Positions 22,846 through 60,430 of a DNA stretch of 64,000 nt are shown piece after piece (position 1 is the first letter of the stretch; the number at the start of each line of letters is the position of its first letter). The translations under genes and the position numbers were made by a program. Source of the stretch: Thelonectria olida (lineage: Eukaryota > Ascomycota > Sordariomycetes > Hypocreales > Nectriaceae). The stretch is taken from contig JAGPYM010000057.1 in the NCBI GenBank assembly GCA_020736575.1, forward strand, positions 78,360 to 142,359, read 5' to 3'. The notes under the pieces were generated by a model. That model was not told the DNA's origin and did no database searches. It was given only the letters and a program-made list of their open reading frames with translations.

Positions 22846-24108
22846 CTACTTACGCCAATACTGCTTAGCCTTCCTCGAACGACCAATTCCCAGAGCCAAA
22901 CGGGCTTCAACAGACTCATGCTTCGCAAGGCGGTCCCATAGCGCCAGCACGCTTGTCTTGATCTCGGCAACATTGTCTTCGGAAACTTTCGGGGGATTCT
23001 CAGGGTCAAGAAAGCCCGCGTTTCGGAGTTGCTCGTCGTGGCCCCCAGGCGACGCCCGACCAAGAGTGTTGGGGTCGCAGGCATATGCCAGGATGTGGCA
23101 TAAATCCGACACCTGCTCTGTCTCCGATTTGTTCTTGAACTTCTCGTTGAGGGACTGGAGAAACAACGGCGACGAGAGGGAGTCATCACTTTGTTTCCCC
23201 GTCTCAAATAGATAGCCCACAATTGAGTGCACAATAGGATACTTGGTCAAGTTTGTCTGATCAGACTTCCAACCGTCGAGAGCTGCACCCAAGGCACGCG
23301 AGTTATCGATCTTGAGCTGCTGTAGTACGTACAGCAACCACGAGAGAGATCCCACACGGTAGTTCTCATTTGCAGAATCATGGGGCGCGTACTGCTGCAC
23401 AAATGTGCCAACCTCGAATTGGCTGGCAAAGGGGCGTGTCTGATTGGCGATACGGGTTTCCATGGATGCCTTGAGCTGGCCAAGCATGACCTCGCCAGTT
23501 CGCATAAGGCCATTGATGCCATCTAGCATGCGGACCTCTTCGATTGAGAGTGCACCATTCAGGGTCTTGTAGGCAAGATCATGGTTGACCTCTGACCAAG
23601 CATGCATGAGGAGGGACGCAACCTGGATCTCAATCTTGGAAGTAGCGTACTGTTGTTGATCCTCTGACAGGCGGTCTGCTCCGAGTTCAAGGCGAAGATG
23701 AGTTGCTCTGTACCCAGCAAACTCATTACGGTATTGCCCTTCCTCCTCCGTCAGGGTGGATTCACATGTATGGCCGGCCAACCTCTTGATGTTGGCGTTG
23801 GCAAAGACCTGATCCAGCAGCAGCTCGACTTCGCGTCGCTGGCTTGGAAAGTACAAAGCAATGCGGACGCCAGAAAGGTCTACAAGATCTTTCTTGATGT
23901 CGTCCACGGTTTGGTAGTTCTTCTCCTTGTGGCGGTTCTTGAGCTTTTCGAGAAGCCGGTCGGGCCGCTTTGCCCGGGAGGTGATGATGGCCGGGATGCC
24001 GCTCTCGCTGAGAACCTTGCGGCAGCGCTCTTCGGCGAGGGTGGCCACTTGGGTGTAGAAGGCCAAGTCGTAATTATCGACAAAGTCGGAAAGTAAAGTA
24101 AGAGACAT
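22846..24108 (-). CDS. RelA/SpoT-domain protein, (p)ppGpp synthetase-like, 420 aa
   Basis: Single exon. The N-terminal half matches the RelA/SpoT nucleotidyltransferase domain: TSRAKRPDRLLEKL (the basic substrate loop), DIKKDLVDLSGVRIALYF (core strand with acidic residue), GYRATHLRLEL (the G-Y-x-x-x-H loop) and KIEIQVASLLMHAWSEVNHD (catalytic strand and helix). The HD hydrolase, TGS and ACT domains of long bacterial enzymes are absent, so it resembles a small alarmone synthetase. The C-terminal 180 residues are helical and of unknown role. In bacteria such domains make ppGpp from ATP and GDP or GTP. The fungal function is unclear. A TATAAAA box at 24209-24215 places transcription start near 24180, making the ATG at 24108 the first usable one. 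An in-frame ATG at 24180 is less likely. Confidence 0.85.
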   Translation of the reverse strand: MSLTLLSDFVDNYDLAFYTQVATLAEERCRKVLSESGIPAIITSRAKRPDRLLEKLKNRHKEKNYQTVDDIKKDLVDLSGVRIALYFPSQRREVELLLDQVFANANIKRLAGHTCESTLTEEEGQYRNEFAGYRATHLRLELGADRLSEDQQQYATSKIEIQVASLLMHAWSEVNHDLAYKTLNGALSIEEVRMLDGINGLMRTGEVMLGQLKASMETRIANQTRPFASQFEVGTFVQQYAPHDSANENYRVGSLSWLLYVLQQLKIDNSRALGAALDGWKSDQTNLTKYPIVHSIVGYLFETGKQSDDSLSSPLFLQSLNEKFKNKSETEQVSDLCHILAYACDPNTLGRASPGGHDEQLRNAGFLDPENPPKVSEDNVAEIKTSVLALWDRLAKHESVEARLALGIGRSRKAKQYWRK

Positions 24109-24208
24109 TTTGGGATGAAGGATACCAGGAAGATGGCGATTGGGTTCTGGAGGTTGGAAGATTGAATGAGGATGGGCCATTCTAACAGTCAAGGGACAGA
24201 CTGCCTGC

Positions 24209-24215
24209 TTTTATA
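24209..24215 (-). promoter_or_regulatory. TATA box of the RelA/SpoT-domain gene
   Basis: TATAAAA on the minus strand, about 30 bp before the expected transcript start and about 100 bp before the preferred ATG. It was used to choose between candidate starts. Confidence 0.45.
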
Positions 24216-26416: not shown

Positions 26417-29400
26417 TCACGAATCCGTGCTGCCTAGCGGTTTCGTCAAGAGCAGAAATCCCTCTATCGACGTGTATGGCGCCGGATCCAGCCGTAGCTT
26501 ACCATCTATGTTTGGAGTATAAATCAGCACATCAATCATGACACGAGGTACATATCCCGTGTAGAACGGAAAAGTGTGCAAGAAGGGGACCGAAAAACAC
26601 AGCTTGGATCTCAAAATAGAGCCAAAAAAAAGAAAAAGAAGTCCCTTACCGTCCTCGCCCACATCCAACGCATTATACCTCCTCGCCTTCTCTCCGTCTT
26701 CCCCGTCGACAGGATACGGCTGCAGCCACGACCACACAGCCTTACTTCCGGCGGCCCGGATCGGTAGCCGCAGGGCTGCCGTGTCCGGCTGCGTGTGGAT
26801 GTTCTTCTGCGTTTCCACCCATGTGTCTGCTTCAAGTGGATGCGCTTCGTCATACGTTGATCGGACGTCACGAGACACCAGAATAGGTCCAAGGTGGAAG
26901 AAAGCGCCTAATCGAGGAAGCTTTTTAGCGATTCCCAGGGAAAAGAAAGAGAATGTTGTATGTCGAAGCGAATTCAAGAGATAGAAAAACACCTACTCAT
27001 CTTTTGGAGAGCACGTTGAACAGCCCAGGCTGGCATACGAAGAGATTTTATCGGGAGGATCGGGCTGTATATGTGGGTTGAACTGTATGGGTCGATGAGC
27101 ATGGTCTTGACTAGGTATTTCGTAGCATGAGAGGCTCCAAAACTTCCGTTGTTCAGCGGGCTGACGGGGTCTACATAATAAGGGCTTATGCTCGGGAAGT
27201 TTTCAGGTAATATAGGAGCTCGCGGATCACCGGACGGGGTGGCTCCCGACGCCGGGAAGTACGTGTAGAAGGTGTCCCATGTTGTGGCGCCGGATGTGTC
27301 ATTTTCAGTATCAAAGTAGCCTACCATTCCATCGAACGGCCTCTCTTTGTCACCAATTTTTATTGGAAATTTATAGGAGAATAGAATGTCAGCAGCGGAA
27401 GGTGTTGTTGGGACACGACTAGGTGGCCGTGCGGATTGAGACTCCAGCGGTGGGAGGGCCAATTCGAGGCTGACCCCGACGTTCACAAGGGCCAGCGGCT
27501 TTCCGACAATAGATGTGGAATAGGCGGCGTAGTCGGCTGGAGCATATGGCATGGTCTCCACTGCGTCGACAACCACCTCATACAAGGCCTGTAGATACGC
27601 AGGGCCGGTGACCGGTTCGGTCATTTTCCCGATGAGCTCCACTAGCTGAGGGGATACTGGAAAGGAGTTGTTCTTGGGAGGATCAAAAGGTAACCATTTG
27701 GGTCTTGCAATGCTTCCCATTGGACCCTAATCACCCACATCCATACATTCAGCGGGAGAAACGAGACAGCATGGTCAGGATACTTACCCCAAGGGACAGC
27801 TCAATGTAGAAGGTGCCATCGGAAGTAAAGAATTGCAGGCCATAGTCTGCGTAGTTTATGATGATCCTACCAATTGTCGTCAGATCCTCGAACTTCATGA
27901 CAATGACAACCGGAATAGACGTAACTCACCATCCCCATGCCGGCTGGTCCCAATCTTCGGCTGCCTTCCATCCGGAAAATGCCTCGTCACTCCCCGTCGG
28001 AGAAAGGAAGTCGAGATTTATTCTCGTAGCCTGGTTTATTGCCGGGGTGAGCTGCACAAAGGGACATAGCGGATATCCGCTTGGGAAGTGCGGGTCCGCC
28101 TCCGTCAGAGGCGCAACCGTGTTCAGGTGATTTGTGCCTTCGAGAAGTCCAGGACAGACCTGGTCGCCAAGACAAGGGTACATTGTTTTGGGTAACTGGG
28201 TAGGCTTGAAGAGTGGAGGGTCTGGGTCGATGCCGCTGATGACCTGGCCGAATTTGTCGACGATATTCATCTTGGTGAAGTACAACTGCCCGTGTGTGAC
28301 GCCCTTGAATGGCTGGTTAGCGGCCTGGGAGAAGTCCACCAGATTTCCATATGGAGTCTGAGCGGTCTCTCCCGCTATCCTCCGCATATCCGCTGGTCTC
28401 ATTCCGATGGGGGTCACAGCTGTCACTCCCGGTCGCAAGGGGATTCCATTCGCTTCACCGGGGACGCGCAAGTTGGGCTGAACGTGTGAGCCCTCAAAGA
28501 GCGTCAGTAGATTGCTAGTCAAGCCGCTAATGTCTGAAGACGCAAACTTGAGTTTGCCGACATTATCCAGAAGCTCTTGCTTTTGCTCTGGAGTGAGCGC
28601 GACTCCCGGGGTATCGATTATCTGTTCAACCAGTGCTTTCAAGTTGACTGAAGGCTGAGGGAGAAGAATGATCCGGCCAGCCACAACACGCTGATCATCG
28701 AGATTGGAAGGATCATCCGCAAGTGGCTCCTTGACTCCGTAGCGCACCTGGGCGTGATTGTTACCGACAGGAGAGTTCAGGATCTGGAGAGACCATTTCT
28801 CAAAGGCTATATCAAAGTAGATTGCCTCCCATTCGATGAACAACGGGACCCAAGGCTGGCCGGACCATTTCTTAAAGCCGATTTCAGCGCTGTGATCGCC
28901 GGCAGAGAGGGCTTGATGAAGTAGAAAGGAAATTCCCTCGGCGATTCTGACATCGCCAATCTTCTCGGCATTGACGCTTGGTTGGTATCTTCTGTCGGTG
29001 ATAAACCGGGCAGGAATGGTTTCGAGATATCTTGGATCCCATCCCGAGTCCATTCCAGCGATGCAGAGAGTCGGGTCTGACTTCTGGAAAAATGTAGGCT
29101 GCGGTATACGTCGAGCCTGGACGAGTGGCGGTAACGTTGTGCCTTCGTCTTTCCGGACAATCACCTCGATCTGATCCTGGAGACCGGTGGTGGGATTTGA
29201 AATCAGGTCTACCAGCTCAATCAGCTGCTTTCGAAGGACTTCTACTTGCGTCTGGTAAGACTGTTGAAGGGCGGCGCTTGCATTATTTGGCTCCGATACA
29301 AACTTCCACCAAACCGCAAACAAGGCCCAGCGGGTGTGCCGCAGCTTTCGGGTGGCAGCGTCAAGATGGAACTGCAAACCATTTACGGCGATGAGATAGT

Positions 29401-30805
29401 CCACTTCGGTTTTCCCGTTGGCGTCCTTGTCCACCGCGTTCGGCTGAGCAGGGGCGCCGCCGGGAGGAGCTTTGCCATCATACTGCCAGGAATTTCCTGC
29501 CGCCGTGGGTTGGAAGTTGTGTGCGTAGATTAGATCCGCCGCCTTGACACGGGAGTCGTAGCTGTCTTCGCTGGCATACAGCAGCTCGCTGAGGTTGAGA
29601 ATCTCCCTGGCCACCGAATCTGCACCGTCTTTATGGGCTTCCAGAAAGCTGAGAATCGCATCCAGCCCCGTGGTCCCGACAGAAACAGGCTCCATGTTCA
29701 CGCTCGAAGTAAACAAATCTGCAAGTTTCTCTGCGGGAATGTCGGGCTTCTTGGATCGGTCGAACCGAACGTCGTATATCGTGCCGAAGCTCAACAGCCT
29801 GGTGGCATCCCGGGAGGCCAAGTAATCGGCAGGCGTCTTTTCGTCAAGCTCGCAGAACAGAGCGAGCAGACGGTCAACCATGGTGGCCTTGTCGGGATTC
29901 ACGCCGAGCGGATCTGACTCCTGGGCCGAGTGCCAGCCAATGACGATGTACTGGCAATTTGCCTGTCTCAGGAGAAACTTTTTGCCCTCCGCCGTCTCCG
30001 CCTCGAGGTTATCAATCATGGAGAAGACGTTGGCGTTGTGCATGGTGTTGTCGGCGAAGGAGAAGTTGGAGGAATTCATCGCAGTCAGCGGGACGCGCGG
30101 GACAGCGGTGCCTCTCTCGGTCCACGTTTCGACGGGAATCTTCTCGCCAATGTACACGGCGGCCTGCTTATTGAGGACATTTGGAGATCTTTCGTCGCCG
30201 GACGTGTAATTCACGTACGGGGACACATCCGTCTCTAGGTCGACATCCGGGCCCAGCTCGTCGACATCCCACAGCCTGTCGCTTTCCACCACCCAGCCCG
30301 TAACCTGCTTGTCTTTGGGCACGACGGGCGTGGAAGACTTGATGGAGCGGGCCACGAGCCAGCGGTTGGGCACTGGACGGAACGTCGGGTTGGGAGAGGC
30401 ATTTTGGTTCGTCCTGGGCGGTTTGGTGCCATCTGCTGCCGCCGTTGCAGCGCGGTATAGACGCGGGAGGCTCCAGTGCAGATGCACGCCCAGGCGGTTG
30501 ATGCGGAGCGGCGGCGTGACAACCTTCTCTGGCTGCGAGGGATCCAGGACCGAGAAGTCGGTCGTTTCGGTGGCAGAAATCCGTGCGTTCAGCGAAGCCG
30601 GCTGGGCGCGGTGAACATCCACGGGGGGCAGAATATCAGCCCGTATTTCAGCGTTGTCCGGACGGAGGCCGTGATAGTCGGGCTGTGTGACGGGGGCAAT
30701 GCGAACTGGACCCGTGTCACACACCTTGTCGTTCAAGATGAAGGCGTCGAGATCCATGGGAATGTAGACGGCCGGCAAGAAGCTTTCGCGCACGAGTGGC
30801 TCCAT
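26417..30805 (-). CDS. large protein of unknown function (bacterial-type family), 1343 aa; member A of the 26-43 kb locus
   Basis: Five exons: 27930-30805, 27788-27866, 26997-27726, 26650-26907 and 26417-26505. The introns are 63, 61, 89 and 144 bp, and all phases close. The first exon holds 958 codons without an intron. The start is the ATG at 30805; upstream in-frame codons offer no ATG. Recognisable motifs are GVHLHWSLPRLYRA (residues about 106-119), PVPNRWLVARS (about 145-155), WVVESDRLWDVDELG, then MSAFFHLGPILVSRDV and WSWLQPYPV near the C-terminus. I recall these signatures from bacterial proteins of unknown function, usually next to homologues of protein B. There is no signal peptide, membrane span or known catalytic motif. 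It lies divergent to gene B, with 694 bp between the ATGs. The function is unknown and I do not propose one. Confidence 0.85.
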
Positions 30806-31125
30806 TTTGGATTTGATATTGTTTGTTCTGGTGGTGCTGCAGTTGCTGGGGACTGGGCGCAGGGCGATTTCCAGCAGCGCCAACGCCGAAATGCAAACTG
30901 TAGCCCGCGACGTGAGAGGCGGAGATGGAGAGAGAGTTGTGGGCAGCCCAGTGGAAAGCAGCGTAACTAATGGTAGTTAGGCATAATTATCATTAACATT
31001 TCTTTGGCGGATGCAGCTGTAACTGGCTACTGCGCGGCTGAAGGCAACTGTTCTGGATGGTGCATCGGGGTTCAGCTGCCAGCCACGGCCGCCCCCCAAG
31101 CACCAGGGGGGGGCAGAGCTCCCAC

Positions 31126-31147
31126 CAATCAATCTGTCGATTGATTG
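31126..31147. promoter_or_regulatory. inverted repeat with CCAAT in the divergent A/B promoter
   Basis: Perfect 9-bp arms caatcaatc (31126-31134) and gattgattg (31139-31147) flank TGTC. The left arm begins inside a CCAAT box (31125-31129). It lies about midway between the two divergent ATGs (30805 and 31500) and could be a regulator or CCAAT-complex site shared by both genes. Confidence 0.4.
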
Positions 31148-31499
31148 ATTGTTGTCAGCTCTGTCGGGAGGGCCGCATCACTAGCTGAACGCCGTTGATG
31201 CTGCCTCCCAGCCACGCCGGCCATCGGGCCACGTAAGACGGGAGAATAGGGCTGCTAATGCGACGCGGAAGTCTGACGCTGTTGATTTCATCCGCTGAGG
31301 GGCTTTGCTCTGGTACTGGACCCACCCGCCAACATTCAGCCCTGCCGGCCGCTGCTTGGTTTGTTTGCACGGTTCTTTGATCATCTGCCGACGACCTGAC
31401 TGACTGCCTTTCTTTCACCTACGGTCGTCTTTCGGGTCTCTGGGGCTTCTGTGGGCGATGCTGCTTTGACGGTTCTTCTTGCTAATCCAAATCATAGCC

Positions 31500-34400
31500 A
31501 TGGCGAGATCTTTGGCGGATCACATAGTGAAAAGAGCCATCGCTACCGCCATCGGAGAGCCGCCAGCAGATGGCAGCGACTTGCCCTTGGGCCACCAGAA
31601 ACTCTTTACCTTTTGCAGGCCTTCGCTAGATCCAGGCGTATATGGCATCGAGGCAATCCAGGAGATCCACGCTCCAAACGGCGAGACACTCTCGGTCTTC
31701 AACTATGACAGCACCGCGAGCTCCCCCCAGCCTGTGTCGTTGCAAACCTTCACCGTCATCGCTCCGCAGTTCCAGCTCGATCCAAAGGATATCAATTCCT
31801 ATTACCCCCCGGACGGTCACGTTGACGAAGGCCGAATCCTGCCTCACATCGTTTTCAATGATCCCCATGTGCCCTGGCAGAGGCCGGCCTTCTCGGCCAA
31901 CTATGCAAGACGGCTTCCCTATCAAGTGCCTTGGCTGGCCCTGATTACATTCGACCCCGAAGAACTTGCCGTCACCGCCGAGGAAGCCCTTGGATTGGGA
32001 ATCCCTGATTTTGATCTCAAACAGCCGCCCAGCTCGGGAGCGTATCCCATGAGCGTGGGTCAATTCCTCACCAAAGTCAAATCCAGAGCCAACTACGAGG
32101 TCATCCAGCGCCAGCAAAACGGCAAATCCATCTGGAAAAACCTGAAGAGCTCGCCTGATCCGACCTCGGTCATATTCCCTCCCATATCCGTCATCGAACC
32201 GCTGTTCCCAAAGGACTCTGTACTGGGCGTGTTGCTGTCTCATGTGCGGGAGGCCAATGTGACTGGACTTCCAGATGCCACGCATGGGAAGAGCGGTCTC
32301 TATTCCATCATCATCAGCCAGCGGAGCGGTCCGATGGATCTCACCGCCCCAAAGAGCCAGGTTGTGCACCTTGTCAGCGTCGAGCACATGGCTAGCACGA
32401 ATTTTGACGATATTCGATCCTATGGCCGCATAGGGATGGTGTCGCTATTCAGCTGGCGATATCTCTGCGTGCCTCCAAACCCCACCAGCGTCATCAGCAT
32501 AATGAAAAGGCTCGGCGATCAGAAGCAGATGCTGCGGCCACCGCAGCAGCTGATCTCGTCCATTCGCAGCCAGCCTGGAAACCAAACTGACACAGACACA
32601 GACCCTCAGAACGGCCCAAGGCTCCTCGCAGAACGCCTGTCGCTGGGCTATTCGATCTCACGATGGCGCGTCGCAACAGGAGAGGAAACAATTTCGTTCA
32701 TACGCGGCCCTCTGGTTCCGACTTTGACGCCCCGGGAGCCTTCGAACGGCGCAGACTGGCCCGACTCGTCGAACTCGGGAAAGGACTATCAGATTCTGGA
32801 CCGAGACCTGGGTGTCATGGACAACACATACTCGTCTGCCTTTCAAATCGGCAAACTCATGGCGGTGTCGGATCCAGTGTTCGCCTCCGCTCTGTTTCGC
32901 TTCCGTTCGCTGGTGCAGAATCGGGCGGCCAGCAGCGCGAGAATGACGGTCAATGGCGTTGTCCCAGCGAGCACCGTCATCAACGACGCTTTCAAGGCCG
33001 TGGCTGAGATTCGCAGAACCACCAAGGGAAACTGTGTGCCCGCCCGCATTGTCCTTCCGAGCTCCAGCGCGGTGGCTCCGCCATTGCGAGATCCCAGCAT
33101 TCTCCCCACGTTCCAACGTGCGATCAAGTCTGCGGTGGCCCTGCAGACTTCGGCAGGGGAGGCCATCTACAGCGACTACAATCTGGGGAAGTCGAACAAC
33201 TCGGACTGGGAGATCATCCACAAATGGATCAGTGACAAGCTGTTCCTCGCAGGCATCCCAGCGCACTACTTGATCACCGACCCCAGCCATCTGTCCGGCC
33301 TGCCTGTCGATTACGACGAGGGACAGCCCATAGCCTTGACCTCCGAAGCCCTCCGCTTCTTCTACATCGATGACGCCTGGATGGATTGCTTCATCGATGG
33401 CGCCCTCTCCGTTGCGAACCATCTCGATCCCGGAGACGATTTTGTGCGGAGGGAGATCAAGGAGGTCTACAATGTCTACTTGAGGAACACGATCGATCCT
33501 GCGCCTGTGAAGCCTCCCATCCCACGGTACGGATTCATCATTCGCTCTCTAGTCATCAAGGCTATTCCTGACCTCCGGGTGACGGTCCGATGCCGCAAGG
33601 CTACGGGGCCCGGAGTCTACGACATTGACGATTCAAGAGCTCCGTTGATTCGTCTCACCAAGATTGATGACTTTACTCTCCTCGCGCTGCTTGATTGTTT
33701 CCCCGAGCACATACACGACATCACCCTGTCCCAGCCGCCACATCAACAGCGATTCACCGCACCCACCTCGCCGACGGAAGGCCTGGCCTTTCCGGTGAAG
33801 CAGCTGTTTACCAGCGGCGCACCGGATGGACCATGGCCGATTTGGCCAGACAGCCGGTTTCCAAACAAAGCCCAGTGGTTTACGCCCGCCACCCGCATGC
33901 TCAATCTATTGCCCATGGCGCAAGACTTGAACAGCGGCATGAGATTCTCAGAGCCCACTCGGGCCTTTGCCGCCAACATCGATCCGGCCATCTTCAGCGT
34001 TATCCTGAACGACGACAACTTCCAGCTCACCATTCTCCCTCCTCTACTCAGCGCACCAGAACCTTACCCTCCGCCGGACCGCCAGCTATGGGCGAACCCG
34101 CCTCCTGCCACACCAATCTCTCCTGCCGCCGCAGCCCAACGCCAATCGCACATTGCGTCCCCCGACGACCTCAACTCCGTCACTCCCTCTGTCCATCCCC
34201 TCTCCATGCTGCAGCCAATCCTCTCCCACCCACCCTCTCTCAACCCATCCGCCACCCCCATCACCATCGCCTCGTCCGCCGCTCTCCCCACCGCCGCCAT
34301 CTCCAGCGAATACATCATGTCCATCCACCCAGACTACCGTGGTCCCGCCCCGCGGCCCTTCACGCCCGTCTTCCCACCTCAAAAGATCTACTCGGCGCGC

Positions 34401-34928
34401 GACTACCTCCCGACCACACCCATCCACCGCCCAGACCTCATCTTCTCCATCCACAAGAACCCGTCCGCTCCCGCCCGCGACGCGCTGCTCGTCTCTCTGG
34501 AAGTCATCATCCCCACCAACACCACCGCCGGCAGCGACGAGCCACTCCTCCAGACGCCATACGTCGGCGCCGGCGCCAGGATGATCCACAACCACCGCCT
34601 CATCACGCTGATGAGCGCGCCCGCAGGCGGCCAGGATCTCCGCGTCAAGATCGCGCCCCGCAGCGCCGCGCTGGGCCAGATGGTCGGCCTGTCCAATCTG
34701 GCGCTAGAGGACGCGAGCTTCAAGCTGGCGGCTTGCGCCGTGGCGCCCACCCGTACGCCCAGGGCGGTGCAGGTGCATGGTCTCGGGCATGTCATGAGGG
34801 GCGTGTGCAAGGTGCTGCTAGTGGAGAGGTGGGCTTTTGCGAGCGGGGCCGAGGAGGAGGCGGTCGGAGAGGTGGATGTGTTGAAGAGGGAGGGTGGCGA
34901 TGTCGATGGGTTGGGGAACGAGGTGTGA
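31500..34928 (+). CDS. large protein of unknown function (bacterial-type family), 1142 aa; member B of the 26-43 kb locus
   Basis: One uninterrupted exon of 3.4 kb. The ATG at 31500 sits in a strong context (agccATGg), and no earlier in-frame ATG exists. Motifs are: an N-terminal domain with FTVIAPQFQLDPKDINSYYP (residues about 84-103), LPHIVFNDPHVPWQRP (about 114-129) and PWLALITFDPEEL (about 144-156); SGLYSIIISQRSGP and VHLVSVEHM in the middle; a long Pro-rich linker (encoded at about 34040-34300); and a small C-terminal domain. I recall the LPHxVxN-x-xxPWxR and PWLALLxFD motifs from bacterial proteins of unknown function that lie beside homologues of protein A. There is no signal peptide or membrane segment. 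High GC and lack of introns are unlike the flanking genes and fit transfer from bacteria, which is inference. It converges with the subtilase-like gene (276 bp between stops). Confidence 0.85.
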   Translation: MARSLADHIVKRAIATAIGEPPADGSDLPLGHQKLFTFCRPSLDPGVYGIEAIQEIHAPNGETLSVFNYDSTASSPQPVSLQTFTVIAPQFQLDPKDINSYYPPDGHVDEGRILPHIVFNDPHVPWQRPAFSANYARRLPYQVPWLALITFDPEELAVTAEEALGLGIPDFDLKQPPSSGAYPMSVGQFLTKVKSRANYEVIQRQQNGKSIWKNLKSSPDPTSVIFPPISVIEPLFPKDSVLGVLLSHVREANVTGLPDATHGKSGLYSIIISQRSGPMDLTAPKSQVVHLVSVEHMASTNFDDIRSYGRIGMVSLFSWRYLCVPPNPTSVISIMKRLGDQKQMLRPPQQLISSIRSQPGNQTDTDTDPQNGPRLLAERLSLGYSISRWRVATGEETISFIRGPLVPTLTPREPSNGADWPDSSNSGKDYQILDRDLGVMDNTYSSAFQIGKLMAVSDPVFASALFRFRSLVQNRAASSARMTVNGVVPASTVINDAFKAVAEIRRTTKGNCVPARIVLPSSSAVAPPLRDPSILPTFQRAIKSAVALQTSAGEAIYSDYNLGKSNNSDWEIIHKWISDKLFLAGIPAHYLITDPSHLSGLPVDYDEGQPIALTSEALRFFYIDDAWMDCFIDGALSVANHLDPGDDFVRREIKEVYNVYLRNTIDPAPVKPPIPRYGFIIRSLVIKAIPDLRVTVRCRKATGPGVYDIDDSRAPLIRLTKIDDFTLLALLDCFPEHIHDITLSQPPHQQRFTAPTSPTEGLAFPVKQLFTSGAPDGPWPIWPDSRFPNKAQWFTPATRMLNLLPMAQDLNSGMRFSEPTRAFAANIDPAIFSVILNDDNFQLTILPPLLSAPEPYPPPDRQLWANPPPATPISPAAAAQRQSHIASPDDLNSVTPSVHPLSMLQPILSHPPSLNPSATPITIASSAALPTAAISSEYIMSIHPDYRGPAPRPFTPVFPPQKIYSARDYLPTTPIHRPDLIFSIHKNPSAPARDALLVSLEVIIPTNTTAGSDEPLLQTPYVGAGARMIHNHRLITLMSAPAGGQDLRVKIAPRSAALGQMVGLSNLALEDASFKLAACAVAPTRTPRAVQVHGLGHVMRGVCKVLLVERWAFASGAEEEAVGEVDVLKREGGDVDGLGNEV

Positions 34929-35204
34929 ATTTTTTTTGGGCGTCTTTTTTTCTTTTTATTTTGGACTGTTTGGGAGAAAGGCTTTGGGAAGTAGGTTGGT
35001 CGGTCAAGATGGAGAGGAAGGCACGTTATGGGAAAGACTCCATAGATCTATTCCTCTCTCTCTCTCCCAATGGAAACGGACGGAACTTGGCACTTGAAGT
35101 TTTAATCTTTAATTTTCCATTCAAGGATAAAACTGTGTTGATCCTCTCGAATCAACGTGATATTGCGGTGTCATCATTCCATTTTCTTAAGCAAACAAAC
35201 TATT

Positions 35205-37523
35205 TTACATTGCCGAGCCCTTCAAAAAGCAGCACCAGGCCACGGCAAAGGGTGTGAATCCTGTTCCAGAGACCAAACGTATGGCGATACTGTATTTGTG
35301 CCCAGGGAGAGCCGGGAAATCAATCACCTCGTAATTGTTGTCGAAACTGGTTGACGACGCGATCTCCTTGCCGGCTTCGTCCAACAAAATGAGGTCAAGG
35401 TTGAGCGACAACACGGAAGATTCTGCATTGGCCAGGTTGCGCGGCATGCCTCTGAATTCAAAGGTACTGATCCACGCAAGGGTTGCACGCAGATTGAGTT
35501 CCTTGAGGATTTTATCGTCGGGGGGCGTGCTGGGGTCGGCCGAGAGAGCCGGGACCTGGATGAACCAGCGCTTCTTGGACAATTTCCTGTCGCCCTCGAA
35601 GTCCGCGGGCTCCAGCCCAGAGCGGTCCCAGCCGAGGGCGCTAGGAGGCGAGGGTGCCCGCTTGAGATTCTGCGTGATTCTCACCGCGGCCAGGGCGTCG
35701 AGGGCGCCCGCGCCGTCCTTGCCGTCCACGCGCTGCGGCTCGGGCAATTTCTGGGTGCTGAGGTCCGCCCACCACCGGTTGCCAAAGGCGTTGCGGCCCG
35801 CGCCGGCGAGCATAATGGCACGGCAGGCTTCGGGCCGGATGATCAGGTCTTTGTTGGTGCTCTGCAGGATGGCGACGGTGCCGGCCACGGCAGGTGCGGC
35901 AAAGCTGGTTCCCGTGTGCGAGCTGCCCATATAGTAAACTTTGATGCCCGGCGCAACTATGTCCGGCAGCTCCCGGTCGTGGTGCGGGCTGGATGGGTTC
36001 CGGTAGTTGACCCATTGCGGAATGTTTTTGCTTGGGTCTTTGGTAGACAGGTAGGTAATGTGCGCTCCGACGGTCATGATGTTGAAGGCCTTGTGGACCA
36101 CGTAGTCGGTGCTGGGTGGAAGGTTGTCGTACGTTTCGGGAGGGTCGGCATCCTCGTTGATCCTTGGTTGGCCCCCGGCTGTGACGAAGGTTGGGAATGG
36201 GTGAGTCGCAGAGAGAAAGTCCATCTGGACGTCTCGTGCCGACATGGTCGACGTTGTGGCCTCGGGACGTTCGTGCGAGCTGACACAGACGACGGAGCAT
36301 TGATTTGTTATTACCCATTCCAAGGACTCGGTTTTGCCCCGGTCGGTTTTCACTCGGTTGGCTAGATATAGCGTACATCCAGGTGCGTAGCCGTTGACAA
36401 CATTGGTGCCTGGCGGCTGTTTGTTCTTGATGATACCGCAGACGGCTCTTGCGTGCTCATTTTCGGACCTGGTAACCCCCGAAGTGTCGGTTTCCAAGCG
36501 ACCGGCCAGCTCCAGATGGGTCACGTCCGTCGGGCCTCTTTCCCAGAGAACGGCCACCTTGATGTTTTCGCCGTTATGGCCTTGTTCCAGCGCCTTGGTG
36601 CCCCTGGCTAGGCCGATGGATTTGGGAATAACCTTGTCCCCGTCGTCATCGCCATCGCGGTCCACGCCGGCCGTCTGCAAACATGGGTATATCTTCCCTA
36701 CATGCTCTGATTTCGCCAATACCCTAATCTGCGAGACCGTGAGACGGGTCGAGAAGGACGGTAGCAGAGAGTGATCCGCCACGTCGGCGCCGAAGCCGGT
36801 TACCAGACCGATCAGCTCCTCCTTGGGAGTTCGATACGCATCCCTGACAGAGCGGCCGTCGCCCTCCTTTCTCACCAGGAGAGGGTCGAACTGCAACAGC
36901 GGCCAGACGGTGACTTCAAACGCGTCTGATTCCTCGGCAGCCTCGAGCTCATGCCACAGCGTCTCATGGATGTGGCCGAACTTGGCGAGGCGTCGCTCGT
37001 TGACCGCCCGCAGGATGGCCTCGCCATCCACGTCGTTCCCTTGGCCATCATAGGAAAGGCAGCAGGGGACCAAAGTGTCGTGATGGACCGCTTTGACGCG
37101 CGAAAGGTACTGCGTGCCGGAGGGTGCCTTCTCTCCTGGCTTGAGCCGTTGCGTCTCCAGCTCGCCGACCGCGAGGTGGATGGCATGCTCCACGCGCAGA
37201 TGCTTGGGGATGGAGCTGGGGAATCTGCGAATGCATACCAGCCGGGATGCAGGATGCGAGGTGACTGCGTTTCCCGCGCCATCGACGAGTGCGTCGACGA
37301 TGATCCTGTACAGGTCCGAGGCCAATGCATGCGTGGACAGTTCCGCCGCGGTGGCATTGGCATCTGCATCGACTCGGATGGGCACGGCGATGCGGTGGCT
37401 CCCAGCCTCAACGTGGATCGCTTTCCTGGTCGCTACGGAATCGACTCTGCGCGGTAAGGTGATACGGATTGGGGCTCCGGGGGCGAGCACCTCTTTGGAG
37501 AAGAACGAGAACTCGACGGCCAT
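35205..37523 (-). CDS. subtilase-like (peptidase S8 family) protein with altered active site, 772 aa
   Basis: Single exon. The first ATG is at 37523 in good context (gccATGg). The N-terminal 300 residues are a non-catalytic region. The S8 domain spans about residues 315-640: IKVAVLWERG at the strand that normally carries the catalytic Asp, NEHARAVCGII with the catalytic His (H357), and HTGTSFAAPAVAG with the catalytic Ser (S540). The usual Asp of the VAVxDxG motif is not there (Leu-Trp-Glu), and D333 a few residues later is the only nearby candidate. The oxyanion Asn of the AAGN motif reads TAGG. There is no signal peptide, so it is probably cytosolic. It may be a degenerate or specialised protease that processes or binds its neighbours. 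It lies divergent to the DUF6603 gene (600 bp) and convergent to gene B. Confidence 0.85.
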   Translation of the reverse strand: MAVEFSFFSKEVLAPGAPIRITLPRRVDSVATRKAIHVEAGSHRIAVPIRVDADANATAAELSTHALASDLYRIIVDALVDGAGNAVTSHPASRLVCIRRFPSSIPKHLRVEHAIHLAVGELETQRLKPGEKAPSGTQYLSRVKAVHHDTLVPCCLSYDGQGNDVDGEAILRAVNERRLAKFGHIHETLWHELEAAEESDAFEVTVWPLLQFDPLLVRKEGDGRSVRDAYRTPKEELIGLVTGFGADVADHSLLPSFSTRLTVSQIRVLAKSEHVGKIYPCLQTAGVDRDGDDDGDKVIPKSIGLARGTKALEQGHNGENIKVAVLWERGPTDVTHLELAGRLETDTSGVTRSENEHARAVCGIIKNKQPPGTNVVNGYAPGCTLYLANRVKTDRGKTESLEWVITNQCSVVCVSSHERPEATTSTMSARDVQMDFLSATHPFPTFVTAGGQPRINEDADPPETYDNLPPSTDYVVHKAFNIMTVGAHITYLSTKDPSKNIPQWVNYRNPSSPHHDRELPDIVAPGIKVYYMGSSHTGTSFAAPAVAGTVAILQSTNKDLIIRPEACRAIMLAGAGRNAFGNRWWADLSTQKLPEPQRVDGKDGAGALDALAAVRITQNLKRAPSPPSALGWDRSGLEPADFEGDRKLSKKRWFIQVPALSADPSTPPDDKILKELNLRATLAWISTFEFRGMPRNLANAESSVLSLNLDLILLDEAGKEIASSTSFDNNYEVIDFPALPGHKYSIAIRLVSGTGFTPFAVAWCCFLKGSAM

Positions 37524-37589
37524 GGCTCCTGTCTGTGGTCGTCGTGGCGGTGGTGGCCGTAGGAGGGAGAGGCTCCGTACCTTACACCC

Positions 37590-37637
37590 GCTGCTGCTGC
37601 TGCTATGTGGTGGTGGTGGTGGTGCTGCTGCTGGTGG
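37590..37637. repeat. trinucleotide microsatellite (CTG/TGG) in the subtilase leader
   Basis: Runs of CTG and TGG (gctgctgctgctgct, then tggtggtggtggtgg, then gctgctgctgg) lie 67-114 bp upstream of the subtilase-like ATG, probably in its 5' leader. The same stretch is open in the gene's frame but has no ATG. Confidence 0.7.
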
Positions 37638-38123
37638 CTCTCTGCCCACCAGACCAGCAAATGCTATCTAACCTCCCAATGCTTTGGAATGCCCATGCTG
37701 TCTTCTTCCGCCCCCGTATCGGCTTCCACACCAGGCTGTTGGGGAAATGGATGCCTCAGCTGACCGAGGGGTTCCGCAGCAGCAGGGCCAATCACGGCAA
37801 GTGATGCGAGGTGTTGCTTGCCCGGAACTCTCAGCCGCACCGCTTAGGAGGCCCGCATTATAGGGTTTCCGGGTGAATCCGCTGATAACGGGGGCAGGAA
37901 CAATCGCGATTGGGTACTCTGCAGCTTTCGGCCAGGCTGAGAATGGCGCAACGTCACACAGTGACTTGGGGGGAGACAGATGGGGGGGAATCATGTGCGT
38001 TTTCATCGGCCGGTTCAACAACAACCACATCCACGGCGAGTGCATCTCCGCTCATGGACTGTTTGATACACGGGCCTGGCCTCGCCCGTTCAAACGGCCG
38101 CATATCCGTCTGGAAGAAAAACC

Positions 38124-41100
38124 ATGGCCTTGGTGCCCCCGCTGGATGGCTCGACCGGAGCGCTCAGCACCTATTGGACCCAGCGGATCCTCAATGAGCC
38201 CCTGCAGGTCGATGTGCAACCGCCTCCGGCACCCCAGGCGATTGCAGTAAAGAGCCGCTTTCTGTGGGATCTCGTCTTCACCAGCCAAAGCAATACGGTC
38301 AAGTTTGGTCCATCATCGCCGGGCACCGCCGCCGTGTCACCCACGTCGCAGGATGCCGTCCTAGGGCTGGATCCAGCGTCGTTCCCGCTGTCGCTGACGT
38401 TTGCATCTGTCGCCTCCAAATTCATCGGCACCACCGCTGCATCGACCGAACTGGCTGCGTTTGTCACTGCCGTCGACAGCCCTCCAGGCAGCCTGATTCT
38501 CTCCCTGGACACCGCGGTGGCCAGCAGAAGCGCCCTGTGGGCCATCGCCTCCGATGAGTATCGCACAATCGTCACGCTCCCCTTCGAAGCACCTGGCGCG
38601 GCCACCGACGCCATCCAAAGATTCACCAACGACTCCTTTGGCACCACAGTCCAGCTGGTGAACCCAAAGGTGCGGCTCTCCTTCACCCTAGCTACCATCT
38701 ACGTTCCCGATCCTGGCACGCCAACCGTCCTTACCGCCTCCTCGTCCTGGCAGCTGGACGTCTCGCTTGCCGCTGACACTTTTGAAGTCGTCCTCCGCTT
38801 GTCTCCCTACGGCGCCAATCTCCTCATCTCCAATCCCCAGGGCATTCCTACCCCGCCTGGCTCGATTTTGGACCGCCTGAGCAATGCCATCACAGGCTCC
38901 AACCCCTCGTCTAGGGCTCCGAAAGCTGGCGATCTTCCCTCTCCAGGCCAGGGCAGCGGTGCCTTCAATGCCTTTTTCTCTGGCATCAGTCTGTGGTATA
39001 TCTGCCTCCAGCGCTCCAGCGAAAAAACAACCCTTCCGGACGGCACCGTTGGAGAGACGCCTGGGCCTGTGTACTGGCGAGTCAATTTGATAGCCGATTG
39101 GACCACCAGGTCCGACGTCCTCCTCGGACTCGAGTTCGACTCCAATCTAGACTCGCTGTACGGCAAACTTCTCTTCAGCAATGATGCTCCCCCCTTGTAT
39201 GCCAATCGTCGATTCGACTATGACTGGCAACTGGACGTTTCCACTGCCGTTCGAACTCCCCTGCCGCTGTATTTGGACATCTGGCAGCTCTTCAGCCCGA
39301 ACGCGAAACCACCGCCCCAGATACCCTCCAAGATCATACATGGCAGTGTAGGCTTCCGCAAAACCGCCGGAACCGACTCCGCCTTCAATTTGTCTGCAAC
39401 CATTGTCTCGGAGGCTTCCTTTTCTCCTCCGCCAAAGAATGCCAGGTCCGCCCCCGATGGTTTTTCATGGGACGTGGTCTCCGTAGACGCCATGATCCAA
39501 AGCGGCGCTTCTGGCCCGCTGGTGACTCTTGGGCTTTTCACCGAGTTTACTCTGACCCCACCCTCCGGGAGCAGCTTCTCTCCCGCTACTTTTGGCATCG
39601 ACATCCAATGGAACTCGGCTGGATCCTGGGTTTTGCACGGCTCTGTTGGAGATTTGTCTTTGGGCATGCTGGCTGATTTCTTCGACGGCGGTGTTAGGGA
39701 TGTCGTGGCTGCCCTGGTTGGACCTCTTGCCCTGGAACAGCTCGATGTGGTGTACACCTATGATGCCGACGGGGAAGCCTCGTCCTTCTTCATCCGCGGC
39801 GTCATCCTTCTTGGAACGCTGGAGCTGGATCTCTCCTACGAATACGCATCCGGGCTGTTGGAAGCTGGTGTGGACTCTGCATCAACCATAGTTCGAAAGC
39901 AGAACGGAACTGAAGCATCCAATCCTCCTCCGCTGCTCGGGCCAGTCGTCGGAGGCGTCCGCCAATCCGTGTGGACATTCACCGCTACCCTCGGCGCCTC
40001 TTCTCCAAGCTCCACGATTGGCTCCATGCTGCAGTCTATAACCGGAAACGCTGCCAATCTCCCGGATTTTGTGGCATCAATCCCAGTCGGCGAAGCTTCT
40101 GGCCCGCAATCCGCGGTGAAACTCGTTCTTCGCGGAACGGACGCCTATACGGCTCTATCCATCGCAATAACCATCGGTGACTTCACCCTCACTTTTATAT
40201 CTCTTAGCACCCCGAGCTCTACGCATGCTAAACGCATCCTCCGCGTACAGGTCGACCAGATCCCGCTGGTGAAAGACATCCCACTTATCAAAGAACTCCC
40301 ACAGCCTTTCGACAAGCTCGTTTACTTATGGCTGGACGATGACAGCGGGAAAGGCATGTTAACAACCGAGCTGGCCCATATCAATGACGAGCTCGACCTT
40401 CTCTCCATTCCGAGAGTTGTTGCCAAGGACACCAATAACGCCGACCCTATCTTGCCTGTCCTCCGACCTGGCCACCATTTCATGGTGTTGAACAAGGGCG
40501 GTGTAGTCCTTGATCATGTCTTTGGCGACAGTGCTGCCAATTCTGGTAGCAACGATGCTCAAGCCACTGCCACAACTCCGAGCGAAGGCCCCACGAAAGG
40601 TGGGCTTCAAGTGCAGCTACCATTCCTCACCATATCCGGAATAGCGCTGGATTTCAGAGGAGGCTCTATCGTGCTGGACTTTGACGCTGCAGTCAAGCTT
40701 GGTCCACTCTTCTTCACGTTGGTCGGTTTCTACATTGGAATCCCTCTGTCAAGCATCAAACTAAACGATCTCTCTCACATCCATGTCGATTTTGGCCTAC
40801 ATGGCCTAGAAGTGGCCCTGGATCAGCCTCCAGTCACACTAGCAGGAGTGTTTATCCATGATGGGATCATAAATCTAGGCGGCATGCATCTGGACAGCTA
40901 CCGAGGCGGCATCAGCCTGGGATTCCAGGCTTGGAAGTTCATCGCCATCGGACAATACGGCAAGGACACCGACACCGACTTCAAGACAGTCTTTGTCTAC
41001 GCCAACCTTGATGGGCCTCTCGTGACCCTAGCCTTTGCATCCATCACAGGAGTGCGAGTGGGCCTGGGCTTCAACAGCATGATACGATCTCCCGCGATCA

Positions 41101-43281
41101 AGGAACTTCCCGATTTCCCATTGCTGGACAACTCGGCAGCCTCTAGCTCGGGTCAAAGTCCCCTCGCTCTCCTAAACAAGTTCCTGGCTCCTTCGACGGG
41201 AATCCCGTGGGTGGTGCCCAAGGAGGATGCGTATTGGGTCGCTGCCGGCCTGACCTTGACGGCATTTGGCATCCTATCCGTCACAGCAGTCCTGGTGTTC
41301 GGCGTTCGGGACGGCGGCTTCGTGATATCCGTCTTCGCAAACGGCATCGCGCGAATGCCCCCTACGGCGCCGCCCGAAGCAACCCTCTTCTACGTGGAAA
41401 TCGGAATGCTTGCGGAAATCAACACCGTGGACGGCTACTTTACCGTTCAAGCCGCCCTGGCGCCCTCGTCCCATGTCCTGGTTCCTTCATGCCGACTCAC
41501 CGGTGGGTTTGCTCTTGTGAACTGGTTCAGTCCCAGTCCTCACTCTGGAGACTTTGTATTCACAGTTGGAGGGGTATGTGTTTTTTCTTTCTCACACGCC
41601 TTGGTTCGCCTGAACAGTGTTACTGACTGGTGCAGTTTCACCGTGCCTATTCTCCCCCACCCTGGTATCCCGTTCCGGATCGTTTAGGCATCTCCTTCAC
41701 CCTTGGGAGCATGATTAACGTCACAGGGAACGTCTATTTCGCCATTACTCCAAAGTGCGTCATGGGAGGAGGCGGTCTGCATCTGGGTCTTGATGTCGGG
41801 CCCGTCAGTGCCTGGCTGGATGTCGCGCTGGATGTCTTCGTCCAGTTCAAGCCGTTCCATTACATGGCGGATCTCAAAGTCTCCGTCGGTTGTGCAATAT
41901 CGATTGACGTATGGTTTGTGCATATCCGGGTGACCGCGAGTGTAGGAGCAAACCTTCACATTGAGGGCCCTGATCCTTTTGGTGGAGTAAGTAACCCCAG
42001 GCTCGATATACTCTTTGGACTTCATGATGAGCTGACCCCCCTGCGCAGACGGCCACCGTGGACTTCTATTTGTTCTCATTTACCATCAACTTCGGCGAGA
42101 GGCCGCCGCCGGCCCCGCCTATTTCGCTCGTCGAATTTTTCAACATGGTCAACGTACCTGGGCCGGCTCCAGCTCCTTCCACGTCACCAGACCCCGTCGA
42201 TGCCATGCTGGGAAGAATACGGTTTGTTGTCTCCACGGGCCTGTATCCCAAGCTACTCCCACCCTCATCAGGGGGTCCTCCGAGCGGACCCTTCCCCAGC
42301 ACCGGGGTCGGCACACCTTGGGATATCAAGGTTGGGGCGTTCAGCTTTGTAATCGGTGTTGACTTTGCACTTTCATCAGCGACAGTTACGAACTCGTCGT
42401 CCTCTGCGTCTCCAACCACGCCCATTTTAACGCCAGTCACAAACACCGACCCGGACCATTTCTACTCCAAACCCATGCACATCAACACCCCCTTCACATC
42501 CTCTCTCAGCATCACCGTCTACAATATCGACGATCCAGGCAATCCCCTCATAAAGGACAACTTCACGGGCGAAATGGTCCTCAAAGACGTTCCCGCTGCC
42601 CTCTGGGGCCCGTACTCCACCGACGAAGACCCCACCGTATCGCGGAACCCTCAAAAGCTCAAAGATGGCAACAACCCAAGCATGAAGCTGTGCATGGGCG
42701 TGACGATATTCTCTCCACCATCCACCTTCGGCCCCTGCCCCGTTCAATCCTTCAACCCCACCATCGCATTCACCACCAAAATCAAATCCAGCACGGACTC
42801 CGACTTCTACCTCCCGGACATCGAGGGTCCGCAGGACACCTTCCTCGCCGGCAGTCCCATCAAACCGGACGACCCCCCCGCGGATCGCTGGTCTGACTTC
42901 AAAGACGAATGGAGCAAGGCGGCGGAGTCTGGGAAGACCGCGCTGGGGAACCCGGCTGTGGACGGATCTCAGCCGGATGGGATCCTCAAGCTAACTATTG
43001 TTTATTGCCGAGTGTATGATTGTTTCCCACATAGTGAATGTCACTTGCTTCTAAACTGTCTCCATTATCGCATACTGCAGAGGGCGGACACAGGGCTGCA
43101 GTTAAAGTCCTTTTGGCCCGAAGCGACATGGAACCCGACACAGAGGATAACAACGGTCGGACGCCACTTAGCTATGCCGCCGAAGGGGGGCACAAGGCTG
43201 TCATCAGGATGCTTCTTAGCCGGAGCGCTGATATCAAGTCGAACTATAGCCTGGGCCAAACCTGCTTTACTGGGCCGCTAG
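38124..43281 (+). CDS. giant DUF6603-domain protein, about 1677 aa as read, with disrupted C-terminus
   Basis: Three exons, 38124-41573, 41636-41986 and 42049-43281, with two 62-bp introns in phase 0. The start accATGg is strong. The first 800 residues are beta-rich and unfamiliar. The DUF6603 region (about 825-1310) is recognised by the repeated beta-strand motifs FLTISGIALDFRGGSIVLDF, LDQPPVTLAGVFIHDG, FKTVFVYANLDGPLVTLAF, YWVAAGLTLTAFGILSV and CRLTGGFALVNWF. After splicing come FHRAYSPPPWYPVP and YFAITPKCVMGGG. The strands alternate small and hydrophobic residues, suggesting a long amphipathic beta structure (inference). From about 43000 the frame runs out of register over an ankyrin fragment, so the last 90 or so residues are probably not native. 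DUF6603 proteins are known from bacteria and fungi and have no established function. No signal peptide is seen. Confidence 0.8.
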
Positions 43282-43528
43282 GGAAGGGCACCTGGCAGTC
43301 GTGGAGCTACTACTTGAGAATGGCGCCAATGCCGAGACGAAAAGCACCTCTGGACTGACGCCGCTCAGCTTTGCTGAACGGCGTCGGCATAGGGCCGTTG
43401 CGAATCTGTTGAAGAAGTACTGCGCTGATGTTGAGTCGAGGGTCAACTCCAGCGATACACTAGGTAGCCCAAGCAACGTCTGGCAGCCACAACCAGCGAC
43501 ATTACAACGTCGTTTCAGTACTAATTAG
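43055..43528 (+). pseudogene. ankyrin-repeat fragment
   Basis: Two frames give typical ankyrin repeats: PLSHTAEGGHRAAVKVLLA and TPLSYAAEGGHKAVIRMLL (to about 43240). After a frame slip near 43250-43280 come WAAREGHLAVVELLLENGA and GLTPLSFAERRRHRAVANLL, ending at a stop at 43526-43528. About four repeats in all, with no start codon or other domain. It abuts, and partly overlaps out of frame, the 3' end of the DUF6603 gene. Such repeats are common C-terminal parts of fungal NLRs, so this may be an NLR scrap that truncated the DUF6603 gene. Confidence 0.75.
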
Positions 43529-43975
43529 TAATAACTCTTGTGTGTTTCCATCTTTGAGGATATATCAATTTACACCTTTCATAATTTCCTGGTATCTTCT
43601 GCGTATTCACATAGTTGCCTCATTTTGTATTTGGGTTGAAGGTGCAGACGCCTGCTACGACATTGTGGCCGTGGATCGGTCCGTGGAAGATGCCGAGTTT
43701 CGGAAAAGCTGGCCTGGTCTGAAACCCTGCAGAAATCTTGATTTAGCCTCGTGACGGCAGGAAGTCACGCCACCATGAAGTAGGGGAATGTTGGGGCTTT
43801 GTTGCATCGGCTCTAGCTGTCACCAAGCTTCGACCACGGCATCTTCTGATTGGCATTGAATGATGAAGCCACGGCAGATGGAGAACCTCAACATGGTTTG
43901 ACATGTGCGCTGCCCTAAGGAAATGATGTGAACGATTGCGTAGACTGCAGTCTTCCCGTTGTTTCCGCTGGGACT
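43529..43975. other. intergenic, no gene seen
   Basis: No frame with domain features. It lies between the ankyrin scrap and the isomerase relic. Confidence 0.5.
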
Positions 43976-52346: not shown

Positions 52347-52750
52347 GACTCAGGAGACATGTTTAAGTTGGATCACTAGTCCATAGAATTGAGGTCAAGC
52401 AGGCATTGCAAGGTGGTGGGACGTTTGGCTAGTAGTAATTTTGCTAGGGTATGCTTAGTATATTTCCACTACGTTCTAATTAAGGATTCTATGCTAAATG
52501 TAGTATTTAGTTATAAATTTAAAATAACTATTAATTTATAATATTAAATTAGTTATAAAAATAGTTAAATACTATTAGATTAGTAAAAGCTAAATAGTAA
52601 TATAAATAGTAAATCTTTTAATTTAAAAAAAAAATACTTATAATATAAGGCAAGCTTAATATTAAAATATAATTATATAAAAGTTATATAAATAGTATAA
52701 AATAGTTTATTATAATTAAAAGCATTTTAAAAGCTTTTATAAAAGGTTTA

Positions 52751-52898
52751 TTCTAGCTTAAAATATAATAGTATATTTTTAATTATAATTAAATTAAACC
52801 TTTCAAATTAGAAACTTAAGTTAAGAATGGAAAAAATTATAATTAGTTTAATTTTAGCAGTTAGCAGCTAGTTAAGTGCAAGTAATTTTTATAATACT
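52751..52898. repeat. repeat U, copy 1, left part (interrupted by the LTR element)
   Basis: Begins ttctagcttaaaatataata and runs to ...tttttataatact. It continues after the LTR element at 59473 with atacttttaaactatata and aaagggctttctaattggc, as the uninterrupted copies do. Confidence 0.6.
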
Positions 52899-53116
52899 TA
52901 TTAAACTAAATATAAGTTGAATTTTATTATATTAATTATAATATAAGATCTAAAGTAACTATTACCCCTCTTTTAGCTAATACTTTATACTATTTCTATT
53001 TAAAACTTATAATATTAAGTAATATTACCTTTACTTATTTTAAGTTTTATTTAATAAGAATGCCTTATAAATTCTTATACTATTATTTATATATATATAA
53101 TAGCTCTAGTTTAATA
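52899..53116. repeat. left LTR
   Basis: 218 bp. It shares with 59268-59472 the words taagatctaaagtaa, tattacccct, tatactatttctattta, ttataatattaagtaatatta and tatataatagctctag in the same order. The next bases, taccccctta, would hold the primer-binding site. Confidence 0.75.
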
Positions 53117-59100: not shown

Positions 59101-59267
59101 CTACTTAAAAGAGTTTAATTTTAATCTATTAAGGAGGTAAGTTTTTATATTTATAAATAAGGACATTTTATTAATATAGGGTTTATTAATAATATTTATT
59201 TTATTATTTTATAGTTTGTTTTAAAGTTATAGCTGCTTTAAAAAAGTACAATTTTAAGACTTTTAAT

Positions 59268-59472
59268 TATTAAATTAAATATAAGTTAAATTTATTATAT
59301 TATTAATATAAGATCTAAAGTAATTATTACCCCTTTTTAGCTAATACCTTATACTATTTCTATTTAAGACTTATAATATTAAGTAATATTACTTTACTAT
59401 TTAAGTTTATTTAGTAGAATGTCTTGCGGATTCTTATATACTATTTATATATATAATAGCTCTAGGTTAATA
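59268..59472. repeat. right LTR
   Basis: 205 bp, colinear with the left LTR. It retains a few bases (gtcttgcgga) that are AT-converted in the left copy. The target duplication ATACT follows immediately. Confidence 0.75.
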
Positions 59473-59540
59473 ATACTTTTAAACTATATATAAAAGGGCT
59501 TTCTAATTGGCTTGCGCTATATAAATATATAAATAGTTAA

Positions 59541-59770
59541 ATTTTAGCTTGGGGTATAATAGTATGTTTCTAGTTATAATTAAGCTAAACCTTTTATATT
59601 ATAAACTTGAGTAAAAGTAAAAAAAAACTATAGTTAGTTTAATATTAGTAGCTAGTAGCTAGTTAAATATAAATAATTTTATAATACTTTTAAATTATAT
59701 ATAAAAGGGCTTTTTAATTGGCTTATATTATATTAATATATAAATAATTAAATATAATTAATAGATTTTC
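59541..59770. repeat. repeat U, copy 2 (uninterrupted)
   Basis: Contains cttggggtataatagtatg, agtagctagtagctagtta and tataaaagggctttttaatt in this order. It is the best-preserved copy here. Confidence 0.6.
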
Positions 59771-60329: not shown

Positions 60330-60430
60330 TAATTGTAAGCCTTATTAAAAAGCTTATTATAATAAATATAAGGCTAGGGTTTAGCTTATATTAACTTCTA
60401 TTATATATTTAAATTGTTAGCTTTATTCAT
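60330..60430. repeat. repeat R2, AT-converted copy
   Basis: Reads aagccttattaaaaagctta then taaggctagggtttagctta, matching the copy at 45545-45660 base by base except for mostly C-to-T and G-to-A type differences. Further inverted copies lie near 60110, 61065 and 62735. Confidence 0.55.

Follow-up and report, generated by a model that had tools for sequence, protein, structure and literature searches.

Tc toxins and extracellular contractile injection systems are modular toxin-delivery assemblies, Lamassu and AVAST type 1 are defence systems with swapped effectors, and fixed cores accompanied by interchangeable effectors are a familiar pattern. Nuclease-protease pairs in antiviral immunity are reportedly the subject of one study (PMC12799240). 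The DNA analyzed here is a stretch of 64,000 nucleotides from the fungus Thelonectria olida (contig JAGPYM010000057.1, positions 78,360 to 142,359 of the forward strand; hereafter the window), in which four large neighbouring genes, named A, B, S8-like and D, occupy positions 26417 to 43281. Judging from operon structure and sequence kinship, A, B and D are almost certainly the fungal counterparts of D-B-A, the core of a bacterial operon in which a fibre-like gene C usually comes next and one of several mutually unrelated genes, often for a predicted enzyme, frequently stands in front. D belongs to DUF6603 (PF20248), a family without known function, whose fixed partners B, A and C and changing upstream gene were found in no matched Pfam or NCBIfam entry.

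The likeness to Tc toxins and extracellular contractile injection systems is one of presumed working only, in that large body proteins, a fibre-like part and an exchangeable enzyme recur; no sequence match to A, B or D was obtained in PHROGs, nor to A, B or one C in Pfam, and no sheath, tube or RHS part was recognized in D-B-A-C. With Lamassu and AVAST type 1, a metallo-hydrolase encoded upstream of D resembles the LmuA and Avs1a models, whereas D, B, A and C of one bacterial locus (L050 in our numbering) matched no PADLOC model in a search that did not take the partners of those systems one by one. The exchangeable upstream genes might correspond to the toxin domains of polymorphic toxin systems, yet they are separate genes, and no adjacent immunity gene recurred among clusters of at least three loci.

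The gene models of the window, whose splice sites were chosen by inspection on the basis of consensus and reading frame, are as follows.

26417..30805, minus strand: gene A, 1343 amino acids in 5 predicted exons, with full-length bacterial homologues
30805-27930, 27866-27788, 27726-26997, 26907-26650 and 26505-26417, minus strand: exons of gene A
30806..31499, no strand: intergenic region between the divergent genes A and B, a candidate two-way promoter from its coordinates
31500..34928, plus strand: gene B, 1142 amino acids, no intron
35205..37523, minus strand: S8-like (subtilase-fold) gene, 772 amino acids, no intron, adjoining D; PF00082
37524..38123, no strand: intergenic region between the divergent genes S8 and D, a candidate two-way promoter from its coordinates
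38124..43281, plus strand: gene D (DUF6603), about 1600 amino acids, two predicted introns; PF20248
38124-41573, 41636-41986 and 42049 to at most 43281, plus strand: exons of gene D, 3' end unsure

A preliminary description of this DNA had presented four large, GC-rich genes lying side by side in two divergent pairs, with B and S8 convergent and no ordinary fungal gene between them, and this picture stands. The models range from 772 to about 1600 amino acids; the starts of A and B lie 694 bases apart and those of S8 and D 600, B and S8 converge across 276 bases, and the only further long open frames in the stretch overlap the four genes. Its GC content is 0.570 versus 0.502 in the left and 0.496 in the right flank. 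The claimed scarcity of introns applies to B and S8 and fails for A, whose four predicted introns all lie in its last third. The 3' end of D is uncertain, its last frame running into ankyrin-repeat-like debris with shifted frames (about 43080-43530, by eye) just after or inside the end of the gene.

Profiles built only from bacterial proteins matched the window at 1e-85 for A (5.7e-25 for a further match on its exons), 1.3e-76 for B and 2.1e-70 for D (1.1e-44 and 6.2e-11 on its other two exons), and at such values the likeness is not due to chance. PF20248 matches two exons of D at 1.8e-71 (241.7 bits) and 6.9e-41 (140.8 bits), well above the cut-off of 27 bits, which makes D a member of DUF6603; as had been suggested earlier, bacteria and fungi share this family. 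Pfam and NCBIfam scans returned nothing for A and B, PADLOC models nothing for A, B and D, and PHROGs nothing for B and D, with a best value of 0.097, at chance level, for A; one full-text search, limited to the literature available, found no paper on DUF6603. Among the best 120 of 269 matches to A, the 96 top-ranked share 28-72% identity, and those named among the matches listed are fungi, for example Squamulea, Patellaria, Cadophora, Exophiala, Baudoinia, Fusarium oxysporum and Orbilia; below them are listed named bacteria at 22-29% identity, with E values down to 1e-31, and bacterial A proteins align over the full length of fungal A. For B, 58 non-self matches were obtained, the named ones fungal. 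The candidates scored numbered 7996 for A, 7993 for B and 7992 for S8, which limits the absences in these relative searches. Bacterial B proteins were recognized as neighbours of A (phmmer 2.8e-40) and are shorter than B of the window, at about 700-980 amino acids when encoded by one gene. At six loci (L176-L179, L181 and L182), B is split into two genes and D reaches about 3000-3260 amino acids.

The bacterial operon was delineated by scanning 84,980 bacterial and archaeal genomes with an alignment of bacterial A proteins, which gave 265 confirmed stretches; 80 of these were kept and 79 loci were analyzed. After gene calling, D, B and A stood in this fixed order on one strand in 72 of the 79 loci, and D was missing from the other seven because the contig begins within or just before the operon. 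Gene C followed A in 68 of the 72 D-B-A loci, and the median gaps were -4 bases between D and B, -4 between B and A, and 21.5 between A and C. The hosts include Actinomycetota, Bacteroidota, Bacillota, Pseudomonadota, Acidobacteriota, Gemmatimonadota and SAR324. Thus, A and B, proposed earlier as proteins found next to each other in bacteria, do belong to a tight operon there; the expected co-occurrence of the four genes is borne out for A, B and D, bacterial S8 genes stand beside D in two loci, and gene C and the changing gene upstream of D had been overlooked. In the window, homologues of D, B and A all lie within 17 kb, in a layout, A(-) B(+) S8(-) D(+), that departs from the same-strand, overlapping D-B-A of bacteria.

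Retrieval through A biases the count of 72/79 toward complete operons, and D and B were therefore also sought separately. In a sample of Pseudomonadota, D was present in 9 of 388 genomes and had B beside it in all nine, B itself being present in 10 of 398. Twenty further loci reached through B comprised 16 with D-B-A, three with D-B, and one (L180) with B and a D recognized by profile. On plasmids, each of the seven records containing D contained B too, with the two best matches adjacent in six, and GenBank labels the plasmid operon genes 'DUF6603' and 'hypothetical protein'; the large plasmid of Streptomyces clavuligerus is one carrier of adjacent D and B genes. A search for B in 50,697 phage records gave no match, and no relative of A was confirmed in IMG/VR. 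In one locus (L029, 14004-22306), A is followed by five tandem C genes that resemble one another at their starts and differ at their ends, like exchangeable fibres. Four loci (L198-L201) hold diverged DUF6603 operons in which the companions of D are different large proteins (about 1000, 1600 and 550 amino acids); the B profile matched only in L201 (5e-7), the other partners being placed by position and size, and D of L198 ends in C-terminal Kelch repeats.

Similarity clustering of the genes neighbouring the operons showed that most clusters, such as regulators, are scattered and that a few occur only immediately upstream of D. All 16 members of a metallo-beta-lactamase-like cluster lie there, as do all five of a second family and all six of a third, which is on the opposite strand; two upstream families were labelled by eye, one at 5 loci as HNH-like and one at 6 loci, on the opposite strand, as zinc-ribbon-like. 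Eight metallo-beta-lactamase-like members compared with Pfam fell evenly on the two sides of the Lactamase_B cut-off, four above and four below, and the HxxxDH motif is present in all 13 members checked. At other loci, the upstream gene is endonuclease/exonuclease/phosphatase-like (L031, Pfam 0.0038, and L050, NCBIfam MnuA 1.9e-12, both below cut-off), a trypsin (L073), an S8 gene (L084) or two tandem S8 genes (L198), with sub-threshold matches to RIP in L021 and GIY-YIG in L169; the upstream genes of L016, L018 and L022 had no Pfam match.

For the fungal history of the core, we counted as fungal those A matches ranked above the first bacterial one and all B matches, many of which are metagenome proteins. 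The A tree was built from 134 of 164 collected rows, including fungal rows of at least 1200 amino acids (48 of 96, plus the window), and the B tree from fungal rows of at least 900 amino acids and thinned, single-frame bacterial rows. In these quick, unrooted trees, one branch parts 49 fungal from 85 bacterial rows for A, and one branch parts 55 fungal from 48 bacterial rows for B, each with a value of 100 in the Shimodaira-Hasegawa-like approximate likelihood ratio test; fungal A and fungal B thus each form one group apart from the bacterial rows. Judged from exactly equal contig sizes, 10 of the 58 fungal B matches, or 10 of the 20 on contigs of at least 100 kb, apparently share a contig with an A match, and by their locus tags A and B stand two genes from each other in Squamulea and in Exophiala xenobiotica; the linkage of A and B thus appears to extend to other fungi. 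In the genome containing the window (52.5 Mb, 165 contigs), contig C111 carries a second D/B pair, whose B shows 31% identity, and fragments of A, B and D occur at other places. That pair (L119-L121, C111 501001-531000) is arranged as D(-)/B(+), A was not found there, and an 819-amino-acid frame upstream of D without Pfam match may be the N-terminal part of D.

The simplest reading of these sequence relationships is a single transfer of the core into Pezizomycotina, followed by duplication and decay. Acquisition of the core as a block is probable, and the direction from bacteria to fungi is suggested by breadth, several bacterial phyla versus Pezizomycotina. The joint acquisition from bacteria that had been proposed for all four genes is accordingly probable for A, B and D and not supported for S8, which showed no specific kinship to the bacterial S8 proteins beside DUF6603.

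The S8-like protein matches PF00082 over residues 345-590 (4.3e-16, 59.5 bits versus a cut-off of 21.8) and a phage protease model of PHROGs (1.1e-10), and it keeps the serine motif GTSFAAP. In the alignment, Glu replaces the catalytic Asp in this protein, in its relative P0181 and in both S8 proteins of L198, all of which keep the Ser; the His, read by eye, is present in the window and L198 proteins and absent in P0181, and the S8 proteins of L084, L021 and L063 keep the Asp (D-T-G). The protease-like component of the earlier account is thus correct as to the fold and not as to the Asp-His-Ser triad, and the protein may be a weak or dead protease serving as a binding part. P0181, its sole relative among the candidates scored (34% identity, full length), is apparently on the same contig as the A homologue P0012, given equal contig sizes. 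By phmmer, no bacterial S8 among the called genes of L009-L087, L119-L126 and L163-L182 matches the window S8, and BLASTP against an L198 S8 standing beside DUF6603 was not significant. A profile of the window S8 and P0181 gave a probability of 22% against the two L198 proteins and 81% against those of L084 and L021; as its kinship is no closer to L198 than to ordinary S8 proteins, the shared Glu may be coincidence. The S8 of L084 may be a chance neighbour (139-base gap, export-signal-like start by eye); the S8 genes of L021 and L063 stand elsewhere than beside D, and the relatives of the L198 S8 on plasmids have no annotated DUF6603 neighbour. What ties S8 to the locus is apparently its position, and it may have been recruited independently.

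Structures were predicted for B and D and then used for fold searches. D is predicted to form about 20 amphipathic antiparallel strands, in an arrangement resembling outer-membrane barrels and the lipid belt of apoB; C shows a weak beta-helix match and occurs in tandem copies in several loci, and a crude test detected no export signal in B and C. The lack of an export signal, together with the intact catalytic motifs of the changing gene, suggests a complex that is assembled in the cytosol and holds an exchangeable effector. Our best guess for the function is a modular effector complex, to which we assign a probability of roughly 0.5. D, B and A would make up the main part of a large soluble assembly, the long amphipathic beta-meander of D would meet or cross a membrane or wrap lipid, C would be an attachment fibre, and the gene beside D would supply the exchangeable effector, nuclease-like, protease-like or other, which the complex would carry, position or release in biological conflict. 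An ancestor within Pezizomycotina would have taken up the core once, as a block, whereupon it would have been rearranged into two divergent pairs without keeping C, and in this fungus the S8-fold protein would fill the position beside D. We propose only tentatively the more specific version, in which D-B-A-C is an undescribed class of macromolecular machine, spread over several phyla of bacteria and acquired as one unit by filamentous ascomycetes, that brings an exchangeable effector, the product of the gene upstream, through or onto a membrane via a beta-barrel-like or lipid-wrapping D; delivery across a membrane as such is doubtful.

Several observations weigh against this proposal. Where a gene was called upstream of D, it is on the same strand in 61 of 82 loci and within 150 bases in only 40 of 82, which means that the place often, not always, holds an operon-like gene; several upstream genes have no Pfam match, and some genes called in GC-rich loci may be spurious. 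No small immunity-like gene recurs upstream (clusters of at least three loci, no fixed second place), an argument against a plain antibacterial toxin. D occurs in 4 of 198 sampled Actinomycetota genomes and the B profile in 2 of 198; DUF6603 has other partners too, as D of Actinomycetota also stands in diverged operons beside different large proteins. The C profile had no match at E 1 in the six frames of the window, where introns or divergence could hide one. The fold matches of D have large root-mean-square deviations and low template modelling scores and hence indicate arrangement, not kinship, and a hydrophobic-stretch test flagged 24 of 95 A proteins, whose conserved hydrophobic N-terminus is not clearly a signal. 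The direction of transfer rests on breadth, with long branches in the trees, and fungal D was compared within this genome only.

The strongest competitor is an internal immunity system, in which the complex would sense an invader (a phage, or in fungi a virus, plasmid or non-self nucleus) and switch on the enzyme, with nothing delivered outside. We consider this less likely than the effector complex, though it has the interchangeable nuclease-like and protease-like partners on its side, as well as the matches of the upstream metallo-beta-lactamase-like protein to PADLOC models (LmuA 8.5e-8, Avs1a 0.0017), the lack of an apparent export signal and of an immunity gene, and, on a Streptomyces plasmid (L197, 948-6004), genes annotated as CATRA conflict system and as CHAT domain within a few kb of the operon. 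However, the absence of PADLOC matches for D, B, A and C argues the other way, no nucleoside triphosphatase or nucleotide-signalling enzyme recurs beside the operon, and the fibre-like C with its tandem copies suggests an outside target.

Less probable still is an assembly unrelated to conflict, such as a coat, matrix or enzyme-processing structure of filamentous or spore-forming organisms, with substrate-processing enzymes encoded upstream. Large, soluble-looking, beta-rich proteins would suit such a role, as would the hosts, which, to judge by their names, include many soil or multicellular bacteria as well as filamentous fungi; the patchy occurrence of B (8/296 Bacteroidota, 10/398 Pseudomonadota, 1/299 Bacillota and 3/199 Acidobacteriota genomes, seed genomes included) does not, and the swapping of unrelated upstream genes at one place is typical of conflict systems. 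That the four are unrelated, vertically inherited fungal genes and neighbours by chance is very improbable: the lack of specific kinship between S8 and the bacterial S8 proteins beside DUF6603 and the 10 of 20 long-contig B matches without a listed A would fit, whereas the D-B-A adjacency in bacteria, the single branches of A and B, the repeated A/B contig sharing in fungi and the second D/B pair already contradict it for A, B and D, leaving it possible for S8. Bacterial contamination or assembly error, suggested by the raised GC content and the intron-free B and S8, is contradicted by the fungal-type introns of A and D, ordinary fungal genes on both sides and named fungi as nearest relatives at 41-54%.

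Four large families without known function that are tightly linked in distant bacteria and shared with fungi are a rare find. DUF6603 gains its first context, fixed partners plus a changing enzyme beside it, in a form that can be tested. If the effector complex proves real, it would be a new kind of conflict system, of which at least three genes crossed the border between bacteria and fungi as a unit.

The sampled flanks of the locus hold ordinary fungal genes, encoding a RelA/SpoT-domain protein, a fungal transcription factor, permeases, a NACHT-type protein, a copper amine oxidase and a CCCH/IBR protein. The RelA_SpoT open frame (22849-24210, minus strand; Pfam 2.6e-11), a bacterial-type alarmone domain in a fungus, adjoins the locus. 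At the far end of the window, from about 52500 to 64000, the composition changes abruptly to a very AT-rich block with a GC content of about 0.16, perhaps consisting of mutated repeats.

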